A DNA stretch of 64,000 nt from Flavobacteriaceae bacterium (GTDB lineage: Bacteria; Bacteroidota; Bacteroidia; Flavobacteriales; Flavobacteriaceae), in NCBI GenBank assembly GCA_029238215.1, contig JAQWGN010000011.1, forward strand, positions 107,607 to 171,606. Reading direction: 5' to 3'. A model generated the notes under the pieces. It was not told where the DNA came from and did not search any database. It was given only the letters and a program-made list of their open reading frames with translations. The number at the start of each line of letters is the position of its first letter. Positions within the stretch are counted from its first letter, which is position 1. Positions 1,106-64,000 of the stretch are shown here, piece by piece. The translations under genes and the position numbers were made by a program.

Positions 1106-2710
1106 GTGAAGTTTATTCAATCGCTAGCGTATAATCCTGGGGTATATTCCCCGTTAATGCAGGACTTTTTATCTGATAAGAGTTCATTGGCACCCTTTCT
1201 CTCAGGGTGTTATAATGATTCCTTGGCGCAGCTATGTGCTAAAGATCGCGCAGCTGGCTATAGTTTAGAGCAACGCAAGGTTTTAGTGGATTCGTTGTGG
1301 AAACAATACAATCAAGTAGATGTTTCTAAGCAAACAGAACAACACATCAATCAGTTGTTACAAGCAAATACAGTTACTGTAACTACGGGGCATCAGCTCA
1401 ATTTATTTACAGGGCCCATGTTTTTTTGGTATAAAATTTTAGATGTAATTAATAAGGCTGCTGCTTTGCAACGGGCTGATAAATCACATCATTATGTCCC
1501 TGTTTTTTGGATGGCGTCTGAAGATCACGACTTTGAGGAAATCAACCATTTTTATTTAGGTGAGCAAAAACTTCGTTGGGACGCTCAATCGGGAGGGCCT
1601 GTTGGTCGTATGCCTACAGCACAACTTGAATCTTTGTTGGCACCTTTAAAAGCACACTGGGGCAACACTCCTCTTGGAGCTGAATTGTGTACGCTTTTTT
1701 CAGAATGTTATTTGCAGGAAAAAACTTTGGTCAAGGCCACTAGAACTTTGGTTAACCGTCTTTTTGGTAGCTACGGCTTAGTAATTATAGATGGCGATGA
1801 TAGGGCACTTAAGAGCTTGTTTGTTCCTGTTATTAAAAAGGAATTAACACAACAGACTACCTGGAATTCAGTAAACAATACCACAGAAAGATTAAAGAAA
1901 GCTTATGCTAAGTATATTCCTCAAGTTAACCCTAGGGAGTTAAATGTTTTTTATATGCTTGATAATAAGCGTATTAGAATTATACAAGATGCTAAAAAGT
2001 ATGCCACTTCTGATGGTGAGCAACATTGGGAGACCGAACAATTATTGAATGAGGTAGATCAGTATCCTGAACGTTTTTCACCCAACGCCTTAATGCGACC
2101 TTTATATCAAGAAGTAGTATTACCTAACATTACTTACATAGGAGGTGGAGGTGAGTTGGCTTACTGGATTCAGCTAAAAGAAACATTTAAGGAGTTTAAT
2201 ATACCTTTTCCGTTACTAAAGCATCGTTGTACAGCCTTATTGGTGACTAACAAGCAGTTTAAAAAGTTCAAAAATCTTAATTTACCATTGGAAGATTTAT
2301 TTTTACCTGCCAGTTCACTTATAAACAAACGTGTGCGGTACATTAGTGACATTGACATCGATTTCAGCAAACAACGGGAGGCTTTACAGAACCAGTTCGC
2401 AGATTTATTCACACTTGCGCAACAAACAGATGCCTCTTTTTTAGGAGCGGTTGAAGCACAACAAAAAAAGCAGTTAAAAGGGTTGGATACTCTAGAAAAG
2501 CGTTTATTAAAAGCGCAGCGTATTAAATTACAAGATCATATTGTGCGTATAACGGACTTACGTCATGAGCTTTTCCCTAATGGGAAACACCAAGAACGCA
2601 TTGCGCATTTCTCAAGTTTTGTGGGTGAGGAGGGTGTTGTTGTGTTTACCAAAAATTTAAAAGAAGCTTTGACGAATGCTCCTGAAGGGCTTTCTATACT
2701 TAGTTGTTAA
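1106..2710 (+). CDS. bshC: Bacillithiol biosynthesis cysteine-adding enzyme BshC
   Basis: N-terminus MKFIQSLAYNPGVYSPLMQDFLS; TGHQLNLFTGPMFFWYKI and FWMASEDHDFEEINHF are characteristic of BshC. GTG start. Confidence 0.9.
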   Translation: MKFIQSLAYNPGVYSPLMQDFLSDKSSLAPFLSGCYNDSLAQLCAKDRAAGYSLEQRKVLVDSLWKQYNQVDVSKQTEQHINQLLQANTVTVTTGHQLNLFTGPMFFWYKILDVINKAAALQRADKSHHYVPVFWMASEDHDFEEINHFYLGEQKLRWDAQSGGPVGRMPTAQLESLLAPLKAHWGNTPLGAELCTLFSECYLQEKTLVKATRTLVNRLFGSYGLVIIDGDDRALKSLFVPVIKKELTQQTTWNSVNNTTERLKKAYAKYIPQVNPRELNVFYMLDNKRIRIIQDAKKYATSDGEQHWETEQLLNEVDQYPERFSPNALMRPLYQEVVLPNITYIGGGGELAYWIQLKETFKEFNIPFPLLKHRCTALLVTNKQFKKFKNLNLPLEDLFLPASSLINKRVRYISDIDIDFSKQREALQNQFADLFTLAQQTDASFLGAVEAQQKKQLKGLDTLEKRLLKAQRIKLQDHIVRITDLRHELFPNGKHQERIAHFSSFVGEEGVVVFTKNLKEALTNAPEGLSILSC

Positions 2711-2784
2711 ATATTCTTGGTGTTGCTGTTAAAAACTAATGGCACATCGCTAACCCCCAATTAAGTTTAGTTGTATTTTTGCAT

Positions 2785-4311
2785 ATGCAAAACAAAGTTC
2801 TTATTCTCGATTTCGGCTCCCAATACACACAGTTGATTGCTCGCCGTGTTCGCGAACTCTCTATTTTCTGTGAAATCCACCCGTATCACAAAATCCCTAA
2901 AGATGTTTCTACGTATAAAGCAGTTATTCTTTCTGGTTCTCCTTTTTCGGTTCGTTCGGATGATGCACCCCATCCTGACTTAAGTGAAATAAGGAATAAA
3001 ATTCCTTTGCTTGGTGTGTGTTATGGAGCACAATACTTGGCACATTTTAACGGCGGCGAAGTAACGCCATCCAATACTAGAGAATATGGTCGTGCACGAC
3101 TAGCTTCAGTTACAGCACATCCATTTACAGCAAACATTCCCCAAGATTCACAAGTGTGGATGAGTCATAGTGATACCATAAAAAAACTTCCTGCTGGAGC
3201 ACAGCAATTAGCCTCAACAGCAGATGTTGCCAACGCCGCATATTGTATGGATGATGGTCTTACTTATGGTATTCAGTTTCACCCTGAAGTATATCATTCC
3301 ACAGATGGTAAGCAATTGCTACACAACTTTTTGATTGATATTGCTGGATTAATTCCCGATTGGACATCAGACGCTTTTGTAGAAACTACGATTACTCGTT
3401 TAAAAGATCAACTTGGTGACGACAAGGTTATTTTGGGACTCAGTGGAGGTGTAGATTCTTCAGTGGCAGCAATTTTATTGCACAAAGCAATTGGTAAAAA
3501 TTTGCATTGCATTTTTGTCAATAACGGTTTATTGCGAAAAAACGAATATGATGCTGTTTTAGATCAATACAAACACATGGGACTCAACGTTAAAGGAGTT
3601 GACGCCACCGAAGCATTTTTAAGTGAACTGGCAAATGTGAGCGATCCTGAAACCAAGCGTAAGATTATTGGCCGGGTTTTTGTAGAAGTCTTTGATACTG
3701 AAGCCAACTTAGTTGAAGGTGCAAAATGGCTTGCTCAAGGAACTATATATCCCGATGTGATTGAATCCATTTCAGTAAACGGTCCCTCTGCAACCATCAA
3801 GTCACACCACAATGTGGGTGGGCTTCCTGATTATATGAAATTAAGTGTAGTGGAACCATTGAATATGTTATTCAAAGATGAGGTACGCCGAGTAGGTGCA
3901 AGTCTTGAAATGCCAAAGGAGATCTTAGGTAGACATCCTTTCCCGGGTCCAGGATTAGCAATTCGTATCCTTGGAGATATTACAGCTGAAAAAGTGAATA
4001 TGCTGCAAGAAGTCGATTACTTGTTTATTAAGGGATTACGTGATCACGGCCTTTACGATCAGGTGTGGCAAGCAGGCGCCATATTGCTTCCGGTCCAGTC
4101 CGTTGGCGTAATGGGTGATGAGCGTACTTATGAAAAGTGTGTAGCACTTCGTGCTGTAACATCAACAGACGGAATGACGGCAGATTGGGTACATTTGCCT
4201 TATGAGTTTTTACAAGAAATTTCTAACCAAATCATTAATCGTGTTCCTGGAATCAACCGCGTCGTTTATGACATTAGTTCAAAACCTCCTGCAACCATTG
4301 AATGGGAGTAG
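2785..4311 (+). CDS. guaA: GMP synthase (glutamine-hydrolysing)
   Basis: GATase class I ([18 protein letters not shown]), PP-loop [12 protein letters not shown]-terminal [12 protein letters not shown] at 2785 preferred over the TTG at 2779. Confidence 0.97.
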
Positions 4312-6055
4312 GCTTATTGTTAAAATAGCATTTTTGCTTTTTTGTGTTGTTGGTTATTCTCAACAACCTGAGGTCTCTCATTTTGTCGTTCATAAAGTAA
4401 AAAAGAAAGAATCTCTAAGTGATATAGCAACACGATATGCCATCACTACAGCTATACTTATTGAATATAATCCAGATGCAAAAAATGGAATTAAAAAGCG
4501 AGACAAACTTCAAATCCCACGATTTAAGCAACCAATAATACTTTCTAAGGCACAGCCAGTCTATGCAAAACATACGGTTCAACCCAAAGAAACGTTGTGG
4601 CGAATCGCGAATAATTATTTAATTTCAATAGACTCCTTGCGCGCATTAAACCCTTCCCTAGGGGATACCCTTTCAATAGGTGCCATATTAAAAGTTCCTT
4701 TGGTTTTAAAGAAAACAGATACTGCTGCATATACGTATTACACAGTGCTTCCAAAAGAGGGGTTTTACACTTTGGAAAAAAAATTAGGTCTTACAAGAGC
4801 AGCGCTTGAGGCACTTAACCCTTCCTTGTTGCTTTCCGGTTTACAGGCAGGGATGATTTTAAAAATTTCTAAAATTGAAAAGGATATCATGCCACTCCCA
4901 AAGCTTGCTGAAAAGCCAAGTTTTTGGGATAGTACATTTGTAACCCCCGTTGTGCGGATTGCTTTGATGGCACCTTTTCGAATGGCTAGGATTGAGTTGG
5001 ATTCCATAAACCAAACACAAAAAACCTTATCCGAACGCAACCTTACCACGTTATCACTCGATTTTTATGCCGGTATGCTACACGCTGCAGACAGTTTAAA
5101 CAAAGCGGGATTAAGCGTAGAGCTAACTGTTTTTGACACTGAGAATCAGTTGTATGTTGTTGAAGGGCTCTTAAATCAAGAGGATTTCACACGTTTTGAT
5201 GCAGTAATTGGTCCCTTTACCCCAATTAACGTAAATCGTGTAGCAAGAGGTTTATCATTCTTTAATATTCCTGTGATTTCTCCTTTGGCTACGAGTAATG
5301 TTGCTGCTCAAAAAACATTATTTAACACCATTCCTAGCGAGAAAGTGTTAAATGAAAAAATTGAACTTTATATTGATTCGTTGAATGCTAAAACCGAAAA
5401 TCCATGTGTGTTGATTATAGCAGACGAAAAAAACCAACAACACGCTTTAAAGCTCAAAGAAAAATTTCCACTCGCAGAATTAATTCAACCCGATGAACGC
5501 TTTGGCTATGTAAAGCCCGATGTGGTGGATTCGTTGCTTACCGCATCACGACCAAACTGGGTGTTTTTGGAGTCCAAAGATTTAAATTTAGTAACGAGTA
5601 TGACCTCTATGCTAAACGCTCAGGAAAAAGAAGATCGCCAAGTGCAACTTATAACACACTACCGATCTGCTACCTACGATGATGCTAATGTTTCTCAAGC
5701 ACATTTGGGCAATCTGCAATTTACGTATCCAAGCTATTTTCATGAAAAACGTGATAGCGTACGTATTGGTTTTGATTCGGAATATAAAAAACGATTTGGT
5801 AAAATACCGAGTCGTACCGCAGTAAAGGGATTTGATGTAATGGTATACGTAGCTCTTCGTATTGCCGCAAAACGGTCACTTTTTGATGGCGTTTCTCTCG
5901 GTTTGGGGCAACAGTTGCAACACAGGTTTGAATATGAGAATATATCTGGTGGGGGATATGGCAATACAGCTGCCTACATCGTTCAGCATCAAGGCTTTGA
6001 AACTATTGAAATAACAGCTCCAAAAGTTCAATCAGATTCTCTTCGTGTTAGGTAG
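4298..6055 (+). CDS. LysM-domain protein with periplasmic binding protein-like (ABC substrate-binding type 1) domain
   Basis: LysM repeats ([37 protein letters not shown]) plus PBP1-like C-terminal region. A signal peptide ([18 protein letters not shown]) begins near a TTG at 4298; the ORF-track start at 4202 would lie inside guaA. Confidence 0.75.
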
Positions 6056-6096
6056 TTTATTCTTTGTATTTTTGCATCTTTAAACAAAGCTATTAG

Positions 6097-7713
<1,617 letters not shown>

Positions 7714-56415: not shown

Positions 56416-56455
56416 AATAAAAAAAACGATTACACTATAATAGTATAATCGTTTT
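56416..56455 (-). terminator. Rho-independent terminator of the 56546-56863 gene
   Basis: Near-perfect inverted repeat AAACGATTAcACTAT / ATAGTATAATCGTTT (56424-56454); minus strand followed by TTTTTTTTATTT. Confidence 0.75.
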
Positions 56456-56545
56456 ATTGTTTTAGTAGATAACTCATTTGAAATATCGAACATTACTTTG
56501 ACTCCAAGAGATTTTGTTAGTACCATTAATGCAATTCAATTGTTT

Positions 56546-57122: not shown

Positions 57123-57305
57123 ATGAACCGAATTAAAGAGGTCTTAGAAGAAAAAGGAATAAAACAAATCTGGCTAGCAGAGAAACTTGGTAAAAGTTTC
57201 AATACTGTAAACGGTTATGTACAAAACCGTCAGCAACCAAGACTTGAAGTGTTAGATCAAATTGCAAAAATATTAGATGTTAATTTAAAAGACTTAATAG
57301 CATAA
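57123..57305 (+). CDS. Small XRE-family HTH transcriptional regulator
   Basis: MNRIKEVLEEKGIKQIWLAEKLGKSFNTVNGYVQNRQQPRLEVLDQIAKILDVNLKDLIA: complete HTH_3 domain. Confidence 0.9.
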   Translation: MNRIKEVLEEKGIKQIWLAEKLGKSFNTVNGYVQNRQQPRLEVLDQIAKILDVNLKDLIA

Positions 57306-57307
57306 AA

Positions 57308-58816
57308 ATGTCAGAAACTAAAAAATCCACCTTTGAGCAACAATTGTTCAAGGCAGCAGACAAGCTGCGAAAAAATATAGATGCAGCAGAATACAAGTAT
57401 GTAGTGCTGGGCTTAGTATTTATCAAATACATATCAGAAACCTTCAATGAACTCTATGAAAAGTTAGAAGCTGATGAGTACTCAGATCCTGAAGAAAGAG
57501 ACGAGTACTTAGCTGAGAATGTATTCTATGTTCCAGAGATTGCTCGTTGGTCACATATCCACAACAATGCTAAGCTTCCCTCTATTGGAGAGACGATTGA
57601 TGAAGCTATGGAAGCTATAGAAAAAGAAAACAAAGAACTTAAAAACGTACTACCTAAGGTATATGGTAAAGCCAATTTAGATAAAGCTTCTTTAGGACAG
57701 TTAATTGACCTTATTTCTAATACCGAGTTACAGGCAGAGAATGAAAAGTCTAAAGATCTGTTTGGTAGAGTGTATGAGTATTTCTTAGGAGAGTTTGCCA
57801 ATGCAGAAGGTAAAAAGGGAGGACAGTTCTATACACCTAAGGCTATTGTAAAGTTAATGGTAGAAATGATAGAACCTTATAAAGGAAGGGTGTATGACCC
57901 TGCTTGTGGTTCTGGTGGAATGTTTGTAATGAGTGAGAAGTTTGTGACAGAACACCAAGGAAATATTAGTGATATTACTGTGTACGGACAAGAAAGCAAC
58001 CAAACTACTTGGAAGCTATCCAAGATGAACTTAGCCATTCGTAATATCAACTCACAGTTTGTGTCTTGGAATACGGAAGGATCTTTTCTAAAAGATGCTC
58101 ACCCAGATTTAAAAGCAGATTTCATATTAGCCAACCCACCATTTAACCAAAAGGATTGGGGAATAGATATATTACAAGATGATGCACGTTGGAAATTAGG
58201 GGTACCTCCTAATGGTAATGCCAACTATGGATGGATGATGCACATGTTGTATCACTTAGCTCCTAAGGGAGTAATGTCAACGGTATTAGCCAATGGTTCT
58301 TTAAGTTCTAATACTTCAGGTGAAGGAGATTTAAGAAAGCGTTTGGTTGAGGAAGACCTGGTAGAATGTATTGTAGCATTACCAAAACAACTATTCTATA
58401 ACACAGGTATTCCAGCGTGTATTTGGTATTTAAGAAGAGAGAAAGCCAACCAAAGTAAAGAAGTATTATTTATTGATGCCTCAGAGATGGGGTATATGAA
58501 AGATAGAGTACATAGAGATCTTGCAGATGAAGATATAGACACCATTACCCAGACCTATCACAATTGGCGAAAAGGTGTTGATTATGAAGACATAAAAGGC
58601 TACTGTAAGAGTGCTACTATTGAAGAGATTCAAAAGCATAAGCATGTTTTAACACCTGGGCGTTATGTAGGCATTCCTGATGAAGAGGATGACGGTATTC
58701 CATTTGAAGAAAAGATGGCTGATTTATCAGTTACTCTAAAAGAGCAAATGGAAAAAGAAGCTGAGCTAAACCAAGAGATCAAAGAGCAACTTTCTAATAT
58801 TGGGGTAAACCTATAA
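57308..58816 (+). CDS. hsdM: Type I restriction-modification system, methyltransferase subunit
   Basis: HsdM N-terminal domain, SAM motif VYDPACGSGGMFV, catalytic ILANPPFNQKDWG. Confidence 0.97.
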   Translation: MSETKKSTFEQQLFKAADKLRKNIDAAEYKYVVLGLVFIKYISETFNELYEKLEADEYSDPEERDEYLAENVFYVPEIARWSHIHNNAKLPSIGETIDEAMEAIEKENKELKNVLPKVYGKANLDKASLGQLIDLISNTELQAENEKSKDLFGRVYEYFLGEFANAEGKKGGQFYTPKAIVKLMVEMIEPYKGRVYDPACGSGGMFVMSEKFVTEHQGNISDITVYGQESNQTTWKLSKMNLAIRNINSQFVSWNTEGSFLKDAHPDLKADFILANPPFNQKDWGIDILQDDARWKLGVPPNGNANYGWMMHMLYHLAPKGVMSTVLANGSLSSNTSGEGDLRKRLVEEDLVECIVALPKQLFYNTGIPACIWYLRREKANQSKEVLFIDASEMGYMKDRVHRDLADEDIDTITQTYHNWRKGVDYEDIKGYCKSATIEEIQKHKHVLTPGRYVGIPDEEDDGIPFEEKMADLSVTLKEQMEKEAELNQEIKEQLSNIGVNL

Positions 58817-58818
58817 GT

Positions 58819-60069
58819 ATGAGTTTTGAAAATAACATACCAGAAGGTTGGATTGATACAACATTAGGTGAAGTTTGTGATAAAATGTATTCAGGTGGAA
58901 CACCTTCCACTAAAAGAGAAGATTACTATGGCGGTGATATTCCTTGGATAAGAACGCAAGAGGTTAAATTTAATTATATCCTTGATGCTGAAATTAAGAT
59001 TACAGATTTGGGTCTTAAAAACTCATCAGCAAGATATATTCCTAAAAACACAATTATTATTGCAATGTATGGAAACTCAGCAGGCAGGGTTGCTTATTCA
59101 AAAATTGAGGCTACAACAAATCAAGCTTGTTGTAATTTTGTTTCAGACAAAGATGAATGTGTTCCAAGTTTTGTTTATTTCAACTTATTAGGTAGATATA
59201 AGGAGATTGAGGGAAAAGCTAATGGTGCCGCACAACAAAATCTGAGTGTAGGGGTTTTAAAAGAATTATCTATTAACCTCCCACCCCTCCCAGAACAAAA
59301 AGCCATAGCCAAAGTCTTAACCGCTTTTGATGATAAAATAGAGCTACTACAAGCCCAAAACAAGACCTTAGAAAACATGGCTCAGACCATTTTTAAAGAA
59401 TGGTTTGGGAAATACCAAATTGGAGATGAATTGCCCGAGGGTTGGAGAGTTAGAGAGTTGAGAGATTTAGCTGAGAAAATTTCTAAAGGAACCACACCAA
59501 GAAAAAATGATGTACAAGGAAAAGAAAACACAATCTTCTTTCTGAAGGTAAAAGACATATCAGATGATGGATTAATTTCAAATAAAAATTTAGCTTTAAT
59601 ACCCAAGGAAGTTCACCGTAATCAACTTAAACGTTCCATTCTTGAGTCAAATGATATATTATTTTCTATAGCTGGAACAATTGGAAGAGTTGCAATTTTG
59701 CATGAAGAGCTAAATGATTGTAACTGCAATCAAGCAATTGCATTTATAAGACTGAAAAATAAAAATGAATTTTTAGAATATGTTCATCTTTGGATTAAAA
59801 GCAAAGAAATCCAAACAGAAATTAATTCAAGTATTGTACAAGGAGTTCAAGCAAATGTAAGCTTAACAGTTTTAGGGGATCTTAAAATAATTCTTCCTTC
59901 AGATTCAACAATGTTAAGATGGAAAGGTATAATCAAACCTATATATAATAAGATATATAATAACAATAATCAAATCAAATCACTCACCAAAACAAGAGAC
60001 AACCTGTTACCAAAACTTATGAGTGGTCAGGTTAGGGTTAATAACATAAAACAAACTGCAGATGCTTAA
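58819..60069 (+). CDS. hsdS: Type I restriction-modification system, specificity subunit
   Basis: Two target-recognition domains (IPEGWIDTTLGEVCDKMYSGGTPSTK; LPEGWRVRELRDLAEKISKGTTPRK) separated by LPPLPEQKAIAKVLTAFDDKIELL. Confidence 0.95.
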   Translation: MSFENNIPEGWIDTTLGEVCDKMYSGGTPSTKREDYYGGDIPWIRTQEVKFNYILDAEIKITDLGLKNSSARYIPKNTIIIAMYGNSAGRVAYSKIEATTNQACCNFVSDKDECVPSFVYFNLLGRYKEIEGKANGAAQQNLSVGVLKELSINLPPLPEQKAIAKVLTAFDDKIELLQAQNKTLENMAQTIFKEWFGKYQIGDELPEGWRVRELRDLAEKISKGTTPRKNDVQGKENTIFFLKVKDISDDGLISNKNLALIPKEVHRNQLKRSILESNDILFSIAGTIGRVAILHEELNDCNCNQAIAFIRLKNKNEFLEYVHLWIKSKEIQTEINSSIVQGVQANVSLTVLGDLKIILPSDSTMLRWKGIIKPIYNKIYNNNNQIKSLTKTRDNLLPKLMSGQVRVNNIKQTADA

Positions 60070-63000
60070 TGAGGATTTAATAGAAATGGCATTTATTGAT
60101 CAGCTAACTGGTCAAGGTTTTGAGTTTCACCACGGCCCAGATATTGCTCCTGATTCAGACAACCCACAGCGTAAAAACTTTGATAGTGTTGTTTTAGAAA
60201 ATGAACTACTCAAAGCAATTGAAAGACTCAATCCTGACGTACCTTCTTCTGCAATTAATGAAGCCCATCAAAAGGTGCTGAATTTAGGCACAGAAGATAT
60301 TATGGAAAATAACGAGCGTTTCCATACCTATCTTACAAGTGGCGTTCCTGTTGAGTTCACAAAAGATGGCGCATCCAAAGGAGTTAATGTTGATTTATTA
60401 GACATTGAAAATCCAGAAAACAACACCTATTGGGCAGTCAACCAATTAGTCATAAAAGAGAATAATGTAAACAGAAGATTGGATGTTGTCATCTATATCA
60501 ATGGTCTACCACTTGTGGTAGTTGAACTTAAAAATGCTACAAGTGAAAAGGCAACCATCCGCAATGCTTATACCCAAATACAAAACTATAAAAAGGATGT
60601 GCCAAGCATCTTTTTCTACAATACCCTCTGCGTTATTTCAGATGGTATAGATGCTAAAGTATCCAGTGTATCTGCACCCTTTACAAGATTTTTAAGTTGG
60701 AAAGCACCAGAGGAGGCAGGATTACAGACAGACCTTCAGGTCATGACTAAGCATATGTTTAATAAGAGGGTTTTGTTAAACCTAATCAGATACTGTACAG
60801 TCTTTGAAGCAGAAGAAAAGAAAGATGAAAAGACAGGATTAGTCTCTATTTCAAAGATTAAAAAAGTAGCTGCCTACCATCAGTACTATGCAGTGCAAAA
60901 GGCAGTGCAACAAACTCTAAGAGCCACCAATTCTGATGATGGAGACCGTAAGGTTGGTGTGGTATGGCACACACAAGGAAGTGGTAAGTCACTATCTATG
61001 GTGTTCTATAGTGGACAGATAATTACCCATCCACAAATGAAAAACCCAACCATAGTGATCCTTACCGATAGAAATGATTTGGACGATCAGCTCTTTGGAA
61101 CCTTCGGAAATTGTGTTGGATTACTGAGACAAACTCCAGTTCAAGCTAAGAATAGAGACCATATCAAAGAACTATTAAAAGTATCTGGTGGAGGTGTGAT
61201 TTTTAGCACTATTCAAAAATTTAGTCCTGAAGAAGGTAATGTATATGACACTCTATCTGAGAGAACTAATATTGTGGTGGTTGCTGATGAAGCTCACAGA
61301 AGTCAATATGGTTTTAAAGGTCGTCTGGTTGAGGTAGAAGATGGATCTGAGATTCGTTATGGAAATGCTAAGTATATGAGAGATGCACTTCCTAATGCTT
61401 CATATATTGGGTTTACAGGAACACCTATTGAAAAAGAAGATAAGTCCACACCTGCAGTATTTGGAGACTATATAGACATCTATGATATTAAACAGGCTGT
61501 GGATGATGGAGCAACTGTTCCTATCAGTTATGAGGCTCGTTTGGTAAAGATTAAATTGGATAAAGAAGTTAGCTCTGAAATAGATGCTTTGGTAGAAGAG
61601 GTATCAGACACCACAGAAGATCAAATAGAGAAATCTAAAAAGAAAAATGCAACTATTAATGCCATTGTAGGTCATTCAGATCGCTTGAAAGATGTAGCAA
61701 CAGATTTAGTCACTCACTTTGAAGCTCGACAAGAAGCATTTGAGGGGAAAGCCATGATTGTGGGAATGACAAGACAAATTTGTGTTGATTTATATGCTCA
61801 AATTATTAAGATAAGACCTGATTGGCATAACGATGATTTAGACAAGGGCATGATAAAACTCATCATGACCAGCTCATCAGATGATCCTGAAAGTTTTCAA
61901 CCTCACCGAACTACTAAACAACAAAGAAAGGAATTGGCCATTCGAATGAAAGAGCCAAGTGACACCCTAAAATTGGTAATTGTTCGTGATATGTGGCTTA
62001 CTGGTTTTGATGCTCCAAGTATGCATACAATGTACATAGATAAGAAGATGCAAGGAGCAAATCTGATGCAGGCTATTGCAAGAGTTAACAGGGTATATAA
62101 AGACAAACCAGGAGGGTTAATAGTAGATTATATTGGTATTGGTCAAGAACTTAGAAATGCAATGGGTACCTACCTCCAAAGTGGTGGAGAAGGAAAAGCA
62201 TTTGTTGATATTAGAGAGGCAATTGCATTAATGCAAGAGAAGTTTGAGATTGTAGAGCAAATGTTCCATGGGTTTGATTACAAAGCATATTTCAAAGCAG
62301 AAACTAATATTAAACTTCAAGTACTGCTGGGTGCGCAAAACTTTATTCTATCAAGCAAAGAATTAAAAGATAGATTTTTAAAAGAGATTATGGCTCTTTC
62401 TAAAATATTCGCCATGTCAATTCCGAGCTTTGAAGCAGATGTCATTAAAGATGATGTTGCCTTCTTTCAAGCGGTGAAGGCAAGGATAAATAAGTTCAAC
62501 CCCTCAGGAGTTAAATCAAATTATGAAGTAGACACTGCCATTAAACAAATCGTAGATGAAGCATTAAGTAGTGATGGAGTTATTGATGTGTTTGAAGCAG
62601 CTGGAATTAAAACACCAGACATCAGTATTCTTTCTGACGAGTTTTTAATGGAGGTTCAAAACATGCAACAAAAAAATGTTGCTTTTGAACTTTTAAAGAA
62701 ACTATTAAGTGATGACGTAAGAGTGCGTAAGACTAAAAACATATCACAGGCTAAGAAATTCTCTGAGATGATTGAAACGGTAGTCAACAGATACCATAAC
62801 AACCAAATTGACTCTGCACAAGTCTTAGAAGAGTTATCTGCCATTGCAAAAGAGATGAGGCTTGAAGATAACAGAGCACATGAGTTAGGTTTGACAGATG
62901 ACGAGTATGCTTTTTATAGCGTTTTAAATCAAAATGACTCAACTAAGATGTTAGATGATCAAAAAATGAAAGAGCTTATACATCATATAGTTGACGTTAT

Positions 63001-63172
63001 TCGAAAAAATGCCACGGTTGATTGGAGTAAGAGAAGTGATGTTAGAGCTAAGTTAAGATTAACTGTTCGTAAGCTATTAATTAAATATGGTTATCCACCA
63101 GACATAGCTCGTATGGAAGCAGATAGGGTTATTGAACAGAGCGAGTTGTTAGCAAATGAATTAAGTGATTAA
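60062..63172 (+). CDS. hsdR: Type I restriction-modification system, endonuclease/translocase subunit
   Basis: PD-ExK-like RRLDVVIYINGLPLVVVELKN, Walker A WHTQGSGKSLSM, DEAH VVADEAHRSQYG. Confidence 0.97.
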   Translation: MLNEDLIEMAFIDQLTGQGFEFHHGPDIAPDSDNPQRKNFDSVVLENELLKAIERLNPDVPSSAINEAHQKVLNLGTEDIMENNERFHTYLTSGVPVEFTKDGASKGVNVDLLDIENPENNTYWAVNQLVIKENNVNRRLDVVIYINGLPLVVVELKNATSEKATIRNAYTQIQNYKKDVPSIFFYNTLCVISDGIDAKVSSVSAPFTRFLSWKAPEEAGLQTDLQVMTKHMFNKRVLLNLIRYCTVFEAEEKKDEKTGLVSISKIKKVAAYHQYYAVQKAVQQTLRATNSDDGDRKVGVVWHTQGSGKSLSMVFYSGQIITHPQMKNPTIVILTDRNDLDDQLFGTFGNCVGLLRQTPVQAKNRDHIKELLKVSGGGVIFSTIQKFSPEEGNVYDTLSERTNIVVVADEAHRSQYGFKGRLVEVEDGSEIRYGNAKYMRDALPNASYIGFTGTPIEKEDKSTPAVFGDYIDIYDIKQAVDDGATVPISYEARLVKIKLDKEVSSEIDALVEEVSDTTEDQIEKSKKKNATINAIVGHSDRLKDVATDLVTHFEARQEAFEGKAMIVGMTRQICVDLYAQIIKIRPDWHNDDLDKGMIKLIMTSSSDDPESFQPHRTTKQQRKELAIRMKEPSDTLKLVIVRDMWLTGFDAPSMHTMYIDKKMQGANLMQAIARVNRVYKDKPGGLIVDYIGIGQELRNAMGTYLQSGGEGKAFVDIREAIALMQEKFEIVEQMFHGFDYKAYFKAETNIKLQVLLGAQNFILSSKELKDRFLKEIMALSKIFAMSIPSFEADVIKDDVAFFQAVKARINKFNPSGVKSNYEVDTAIKQIVDEALSSDGVIDVFEAAGIKTPDISILSDEFLMEVQNMQQKNVAFELLKKLLSDDVRVRKTKNISQAKKFSEMIETVVNRYHNNQIDSAQVLEELSAIAKEMRLEDNRAHELGLTDDEYAFYSVLNQNDSTKMLDDQKMKELIHHIVDVIRKNATVDWSKRSDVRAKLRLTVRKLLIKYGYPPDIARMEADRVIEQSELLANELSD

Positions 63173-63267
63173 ATTATTCATATTCTATAAAAAATTGAAA
63201 AAATAAATTTTTTAAAAATTCGAGTTTTTACCAAAAAATTCCAGAAAAATCCGGAGCGAGGCATTGA

Positions 63268-63336
63268 CCCCCTCTGGGAAAGTCAAAACACCCTTATGTA
63301 AGAGGGGGCTTCGGGTCGTCCAGCAGGGGGCCCCCC
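63268..63336. other. Structured G/C-tract block downstream of hsdR
   Basis: CCCCCTCT (63268-63275) complementary to AGAGGGGG (63301-63308); GACCC (63266-63270) complementary to GGGTC (63313-63317); GGGGGCCCCCC at 63326-63336. Confidence 0.6.
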
Positions 63337-63350
63337 TTCATACTATATAA

Positions 63351-63416
63351 TGTGCGAATAATAATAATTCTGATCACCATCGTGACGGTGATCCTTAGCT
63401 AATTATTATCCGCACA
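63351..63416. repeat. 66-nt quasi-palindrome upstream of serine recombinase
   Basis: Outer arms TGTGCGaATAATAATaATT (63351-63369) and AATTATTATcCGCACA (63401-63416); inner arms GATCACC (63372-63378) and GGTGATC (63387-63393). Confidence 0.75.
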
Positions 63417-63532
63417 CAAAAAGTGTCTCAAAACAATTATTGTATCAAAAATTTAGCGTTTATTATTCCGGTACCCCATTAATCCGCTGTATAATAGCCT
63501 CACAGAAACCCAAAGGATTAAAATGATACGAT

Positions 63533-64000
63533 ATGATTAAGACTGTAATTTACTCAAGAGTTAGTTCAGAGTCAGAGAGACAGGACACAGAGAGACAAAC
63601 AAAGGAACTACAACAATATGCTAAGAGAATGAACTATGAGGTAGTTGAAGTTTTTGAAGAAAAGGTAAGTGGATTCAAAAAGAACGATCAAAGACCAGTT
63701 TTTTCCAAGATGTTGGAACTGGCGAAAGTGGGATCAATTGATAAAATATTAGTTTGGGAGTTAAGTCGAATAGGAAGGTCGGTACTTCAGTCCCTTCAAA
63801 ACATACAACTCCTTCATGATTTAAAAGTCGGACTTTATATAAAGAATTTTAATCTTGATACGCTCAACGAGGATAAGACACCAAATAGTTTATCAATGTT
63901 TATGGTCCAAATATTGTTCAGCGTTGCAAATATGGAAAGTAAGATGACGCTATCTCGATTACAGTCAGGTTACCGCAATCATATCAAGAAAAATGGAAAG
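63533..64000 (+). CDS. Serine recombinase (resolvase/invertase family), 3' end cut by window edge
   Basis: Own translation from ATG 63533: MIKTVIYSRVSSESERQDTERQTKELQQYAKRMNYEVVEVFEEKVSGFKKNDQRPVFSKMLELAKVGSIDKILVWELSRIGRSVLQSLQNIQLLHDLKVGLYIKNFNLDT...; absent from the ORF track because there is no stop in the window. Confidence 0.92.
   Translation, partial: MIKTVIYSRVSSESERQDTERQTKELQQYAKRMNYEVVEVFEEKVSGFKKNDQRPVFSKMLELAKVGSIDKILVWELSRIGRSVLQSLQNIQLLHDLKVGLYIKNFNLDTLNEDKTPNSLSMFMVQILFSVANMESKMTLSRLQSGYRNHIKKNGK

Follow-up and report, generated by a model that had tools for sequence, protein, structure and literature searches.

A quasi-palindrome formed by facing boxes lies between cargo genes and a putative res site in tRNA-integrating islands of Flavobacteriaceae and Cytophagaceae

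The window, i.e., the 64,000-nucleotide stretch of flavobacterial DNA analyzed here, carries at its right end a small serine recombinase gene of the resolvase type. The gene is represented by its 5′ 156 codons (63533 to 64000, + strand; PF00239, E = 3e-32), because the window stops at the end of contig C2; full-length relatives of the protein have ~210 residues. A type I restriction-modification (R-M) cluster precedes it on the same strand, headed by a small Cro/C1-type HTH gene (57123 to 57305) and continuing with hsdM and hsdS, which encode the modification and specificity subunits (57308 to 60069), and hsdR, encoding the restriction subunit (60062 to 63172). To the left of the cluster, a terminator-like sequence with TTGTTTTAGTAG (56425 to 56468, no strand assigned) is the likely left end of an island; in related hosts it follows tRNA-Met. 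On its right side, hsdR adjoins a variable block whose layout is conserved in an alignment of upstream regions (63264 to 63345, + strand). It is followed by a 66-nt quasi-palindrome (63351 to 63416, no strand assigned) and by a 112-bp stretch conserved in all relatives aligned, which comprises a putative res site and a putative promoter of the resolvase gene (63421 to 63532, + strand).

The palindrome, TGTGCGAATAATAATAATTCTGATCACCATCGTGACGGTGATCCTTAGCTAATTATTATCCGCACA, consists of an inverted pair of the box TTATCCGCACA around an inner stem, GATCACC/GGTGATC. The outer stem is made of TGTGCG/CGCACA plus ATAATAAT/ATTATTAT, and the left box copy, TGTGCGAATAA, is degenerate relative to TTATCCGCACA. 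A sequence-only reading had noted a nested inverted repeat at this place, and both its letters and its fold statistics bear this out: in single-stranded DNA the 66-mer has a fold energy of −13.1 kcal/mol, while shuffled sequences average −4.24 (z = −4.79) and none of 200 reaches its stability. The z score is −4.65 when the flanks are included, and the palindrome ranks about fifth in stability among 66-mer loci of the window. It is real, not a chance arrangement. Its distance from the recombinase, previously given as about 117 bp, is 116 bp between the palindrome end and the ATG codon at 63533. The left arm with its preceding base (63350 to 63361) reads ATG-TGC-GNN-TAA in the window, L004, and L005, and the same codon string has a GTG start in L006; this is a possible mini-ORF or a coincidence.

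The same sequence-only reading had proposed a search for a second copy flanking an invertible or excisable segment. The 88-bp region around the palindrome is single-copy in its own genome (G000; 1.67 Mb, 88% complete), and G000, G480, and G481 each have a single location with the paired-box pattern. A role as the site of an invertible or excisable segment is not supported, given the absence of a second copy from this 88%-complete genome. We also dropped a role as a terminator, since a scan of both strands found no intrinsic terminator (GC-rich stem plus T run) matching the palindrome. The only match to the paired-box pattern on a viral contig (L048) was set aside as a chance stem-loop between genes of a GC-rich, phage-like contig.

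“Ca. Arcticimaribacter forsetii” encodes a close relative of the recombinase (L005, 95% identity). Further assemblies of Flavobacteriaceae or Bacteroidia encode the relatives of L004 and L006 (99%), L052 (96% identical to the L004 protein), L007 (83%), and L008 (78%). In metagenome-assembled genomes of Cytophagaceae, the recombinases of L009 and L010 show about 60% identity, and that of L041 is 92% identical to the L009 protein. Sequence relatives in the PDB include 2r0q, labelled Tn552 DNA-invertase bin3. A resolvase scan of viral contigs returned remote relatives and nothing close. Regions homologous to that of the window lie upstream of the resolvase genes of L004 to L010, L041, and L052, and in L024 the homologous region adjoins a decayed resolvase start. 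The set of array loci is small, about a dozen, with several on short contigs, and many of the carrier genomes are incomplete.

The surroundings of these loci are those of mobile islands integrated at tRNA genes. In A. forsetii (G480), a match to the terminator-like sequence of the window is found at the left end of the island and tRNA-Met at the right end; there an intact tRNA-Met gene, with a large serine integrase beside it, bounds the block that spans the R-M genes and the resolvase. In G481 (L006/L031), the terminator-like sequence shared with the window follows tRNA-Met, and a tRNA-Met fragment of ~41 bp is repeated at a distance of about 11.8 kb from the intact copy. A large serine integrase is located near tRNA-Asn in G483 (L008), and a Phage_integrase gene adjoins tRNA-Glu in G484 (L009). 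The island integrases found beside tRNA genes are of the large serine or Phage_integrase/SAM_5 types.

The cargo to the left of the array differs between islands. It is a type I R-M system in the window and in L005, and a C5-methylase gene in L010. L027 combines C5-methylases with a putative NTPase that matches PDC-M26A and has an Mrr-type gene on the resolvase side, and L006 has a TonB-receptor-like protein, named by sequence alone. In G613 (L055, positions 2243 to 7542), the cargo comprises homologues of SspB, SspC, and SspD of phosphorothioate defence, and the adjacent resolvase shares 92% identity with the L009 protein. On the right of the resolvase are a DNA methylase gene, fused to ParB_N in L008, an integrase gene, and a gene for a BT4734-like_N protein or for a ~525-aa protein without an assigned family. 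With differing cargo on the left and core genes on the right, the palindrome lies where cargo meets core in a mobile, tRNA-integrating island of Flavobacteriaceae and Cytophagaceae that carries mostly defence cargo. No replication gene was recognized in the A. forsetii island, and no relaxase among the island genes examined.

Several other features of these islands were noted. In G479 (contig C34; L024/L027, positions 7100 to 7550), a decayed array and resolvase leader precede a type IV restriction gene of the Mrr type, which stands in the place of the resolvase, and a different resolvase of 206 residues is encoded elsewhere in the island. An intergenic TTTTACGACAA motif recurs downstream of the resolvase or of a peptidase-like gene in L005, L006, L008, and L009. 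The ~525-aa core protein (L008, 4698 to 6275; L009, 8445 to 10028) matches no convincing Pfam family, and its VDISTSHP and ITIHDS motifs look polymerase-like; tblastn searches found no relatives of it in the phage collection or on viral contigs. The end of a DUF2779 gene, or a C-terminal remnant of it, adjoins the array in L004, L006, and L008.

Comparison of the loci indicated that the palindrome belongs to a larger arrangement. From left to right, the variable block consists of a promoter-like TTGACC...TATATAAG sequence (TTGACC at 63264; TATGTAAG at 63295), a G-rich CAGG/GGGGGCCCCCC motif that extends to about 63336, and box copies. There are one to four box copies per relative, direct or inverted, at distances of 45 to 112 bp. 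The box sequence, a short and element-dependent motif whose consensus we chose by eye, agrees within an element and differs between elements. It is TTATCCGCACA in the window and in L004 to L006, TAATCGGCA in L008 (three copies at an exact spacing of 62 bp), TTTCGCAT in L010 (two copies), and TTGRTTGGC in L024 (three copies); TTAATTGGCA is a further element-specific box. Two facing boxes form the palindrome in the window, L004, L005, and L006, and L041 has TGCCA facing TGGCA. The number of units also varies: L006 has one extra unit, its similarity to the window beginning at the first palindrome base, and L010 has an extra unit of ~82 bp relative to L009. Two simpler identities of the box were considered and rejected. 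Insertion of a MITE does not account for the right box holding its position beside res in loci that lack the left copy. The resemblance of TTATCCGCACA to the DnaA box TTATCCACA, of which L006 has a perfect copy, does not extend to the boxes of L007, L008, L010, and L024.

The two halves of the palindrome are unequally conserved. The right half (63384 to 63416, + strand), which ends in GATCCTTAGCTAATTATTATCCGCACA, is identical to that of L005 at 32 of 33 positions, and its GATCCTTAGCTAA is also found in the Cytophagaceae locus L041. The left half (63351 to 63383, no strand assigned) is identical to L005 at 24 of 32. Of the four-fold sites of hsdR, 104 of 363 (29%) differ between the window and L005; by this measure, the right half is judged to be constrained and the left half to be near the neutral, synonymous rate, apart from TGTGCG. 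Across 63284 to 63380, 34 of 96 positions differ, which is close to the hsdR four-fold divergence; this pair thus shows a lack of constraint only, and we rejected hypervariability beyond neutral for it. The equivalent regions of L004 and L006 are essentially unalignable.

We then considered whether base pairing itself is conserved. In an alignment of four close sequences, none of the 21 stem pairs has changes on both sides, and 6 of them lose their pairing in one sequence or more. L005 (z = −3.9) and L006 (z = −4.4) form a strong hairpin, L004 (z = −1.1) and L041 (z = −1.2) a weak one. In the array units of L007, L008, L010, and L024 the hairpin is absent or weak, not clearly above shuffles. 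A hairpin function of the palindrome is therefore unsupported by these alignments, as compensatory changes are absent and most other arrays are hairpin-free. Three of the four close relatives (window, L005, and L006) nevertheless have a strong palindrome, so selection may act on the structure.

The conserved stretch next to the palindrome has other properties. The segment from 63417 to 63532 is identical to L005 at 108 of 115 positions. It contains two direct boxes 17 bp apart, A and B (TGTCTC at 63424 and TGTATC at 63441), CCGGTACC at 63468, a −10-like GTATAAT at 63489, and an inverted box, TGATAC, at 63524. The common motif is a direct pair of GTNNC with an inverted GNNAC at the start codon, and the two co-vary: GTACC occurs with GGTAC (L009 and L010), GTTCC with GGAAC (L042 and L045), and GTATC with GATAC (L041 and L054). 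Agreement between box and inverted box was above permutation for 14 loci (7/20,000) and for eight representatives used to limit relatedness (127/20,000), in a small set of loci where the boxes were read by eye; L007 was left out of the permutation test because it has the direct boxes but an unclear inverted one. The GTNNC boxes are kept in resolvase modules devoid of an array (L042 to L045 and L054).

The res site of the resolvase is most likely this conserved 63421 to 63532 stretch, outside the palindrome. Its size and its position fit known res sites, which measure ~107 to 120 bp for Tn3 and SGI1-type elements (PMC12217951) and 86 bp for Sin, including a head-to-tail site II (PMC2428073), and it carries motifs that track the resolvase. 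The likeness to Sin/beta-type systems lies in the small serine resolvase and in head-to-tail recombinase motifs (site II) accompanied by a further site (PMC2428073); in the putative site described here, in contrast, a distance of 17 bp separates box A from box B, and site I was not located. SGI1-family islands are likewise chromosomal and encode an integrase and a small resolvase of the Tn3 type; their res, of ~107 bp, immediately precedes the resolvase gene, and variable cargo is placed upstream of that gene (PMC12217951). Their hosts and core genes are different, as are the integration sites, which are tRNA genes in the present islands, and the cargo, which is mainly restriction and defence in the present islands. 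Moreover, cargo interrupts res in SGI1, whereas res looks intact here, and we did not find a box array between cargo and res described for SGI1.

We favor, at a probability of roughly 0.5, the view that the palindrome is one unit of the element-specific box array and that this array is a putative protein-binding site of the origin or operator type at the cargo edge. The resolvase would act on the neighboring res (63421 to 63532), probably to resolve island multimers, and the array would form a separate cis-acting module at the junction of the cargo and the conserved resolvase module. The palindrome would owe its shape to two boxes that face each other, not to selection for a hairpin. The layout of the array, its pattern of conservation, the co-variation of the res boxes, and the island setting are observed; from these we infer that the boxes bind a protein, most likely encoded by the element or by a helper, and that this protein would start or regulate island replication, excision, or transfer. 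The lack of a recognized replication gene in the A. forsetii island weakens an origin role with an initiator of its own.

The array region might instead specify an RNA. Transcription from TTGACC...TATATAAG would proceed in the direction of the resolvase, across the G-rich block and the hairpin, yielding a leader or small RNA whose structure controls the resolvase or island transfer, like the SGI1 sgm-sRNA near oriT. The position of the promoter-like sequence is conserved across loci, the 193-nt RNA folds better than its shuffles (z = −3.3), and there is a precedent in the sRNA that SGI1 mobilization requires (PMC9299015). However, Rfam gave zero matches (E ≤ 5 for the window region, E ≤ 1 for the relatives), and both the lack of compensatory changes and the poor folding of the L007, L008, L010, and L024 units argue against a structured RNA, which we regard as unlikely.

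An improbable alternative is an oriT mimic, in which the inverted repeats would be copies of the relaxosome sites of a conjugative helper element. The relaxase-less island would be mobilized in trans, and the divergence of the boxes would reflect different helpers. Subtype-varying inverted repeats in a conserved layout do characterize the oriT mimics of staphylococcal pWBG749-family plasmids, which occur on relaxase-less elements (PMC8136818), and the islands examined share the lack of a recognized relaxase. Here, though, no core or nick sequence was identified, no helper was found, and the boxes can be direct instead of inverted. Searches of 72,556 plasmid records and 50,697 phage records gave no DNA homologue of the region, and PF03432, the one relaxase family searched, is absent from ten carrier genomes, several of them incomplete, which weakens an oriT role.

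It has also been proposed that the palindrome is itself a recombination site. Two parts of this idea stand, namely the connection with the recombinase of a mobile element and a cis-acting nature of the region; the palindrome is probably not the crossover site of the recombinase, as the boxes that track this enzyme sit in 63421 to 63532 and persist without the palindrome in L042 to L045 and L054. We considered more broadly that it might be part of the resolvase site, as a crossover or accessory subsite, given that the first res box is only 7 bp away and that the right half of the palindrome is conserved to the same degree as res. This is improbable on several grounds: the palindrome boxes lack the GTNNC motif, their spacing to the res boxes ranges from 9 to 40 bp among relatives, the array is missing beside some resolvase modules, and the span of ~86 to 120 bp beside the gene that known res sites occupy (PMC12217951, PMC2428073) is already filled. 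Finally, a gene-free, cassette-like array of attC-like single-strand units (~60 to 80 bp, bounded by boxes, gained or lost by site-specific recombination) would fit the short imperfect inverted repeat around a variable center and the unit-wise changes at box boundaries, with a duplicated box, in L006 versus the window and L010 versus L009, but it is very improbable, because the islands examined have no recognized integron integrase, duplex DNA is the substrate of serine resolvases, the units have no GTTRRRY/RYYYAAC box pair, gene cassettes, or conserved hairpin, most of them forming none at all, and unequal exchange or slippage suffices for the two L008 units, which resemble diverged tandem duplicates.

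Returning to the box array as a protein-binding module, one extension of this view is speculative and rather unlikely: the islands may represent an undescribed family of defence islands of aquatic Bacteroidota in which the fast-changing array is the identity tag that an initiator or helper recognizes. If so, the tag would set origin or transfer specificity, and islands would diversify through swaps of box type and of unit number. What looked like a lone palindrome becomes a recurring landmark of a family of mobile islands in aquatic bacteria, whose cargo includes restriction and other defence genes. The likely resolvase site is now separated from a second cis-acting module, whose sequence varies from island to island. 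This second module may provide a testable clue to how islands without recognized relaxase or capsid genes spread.
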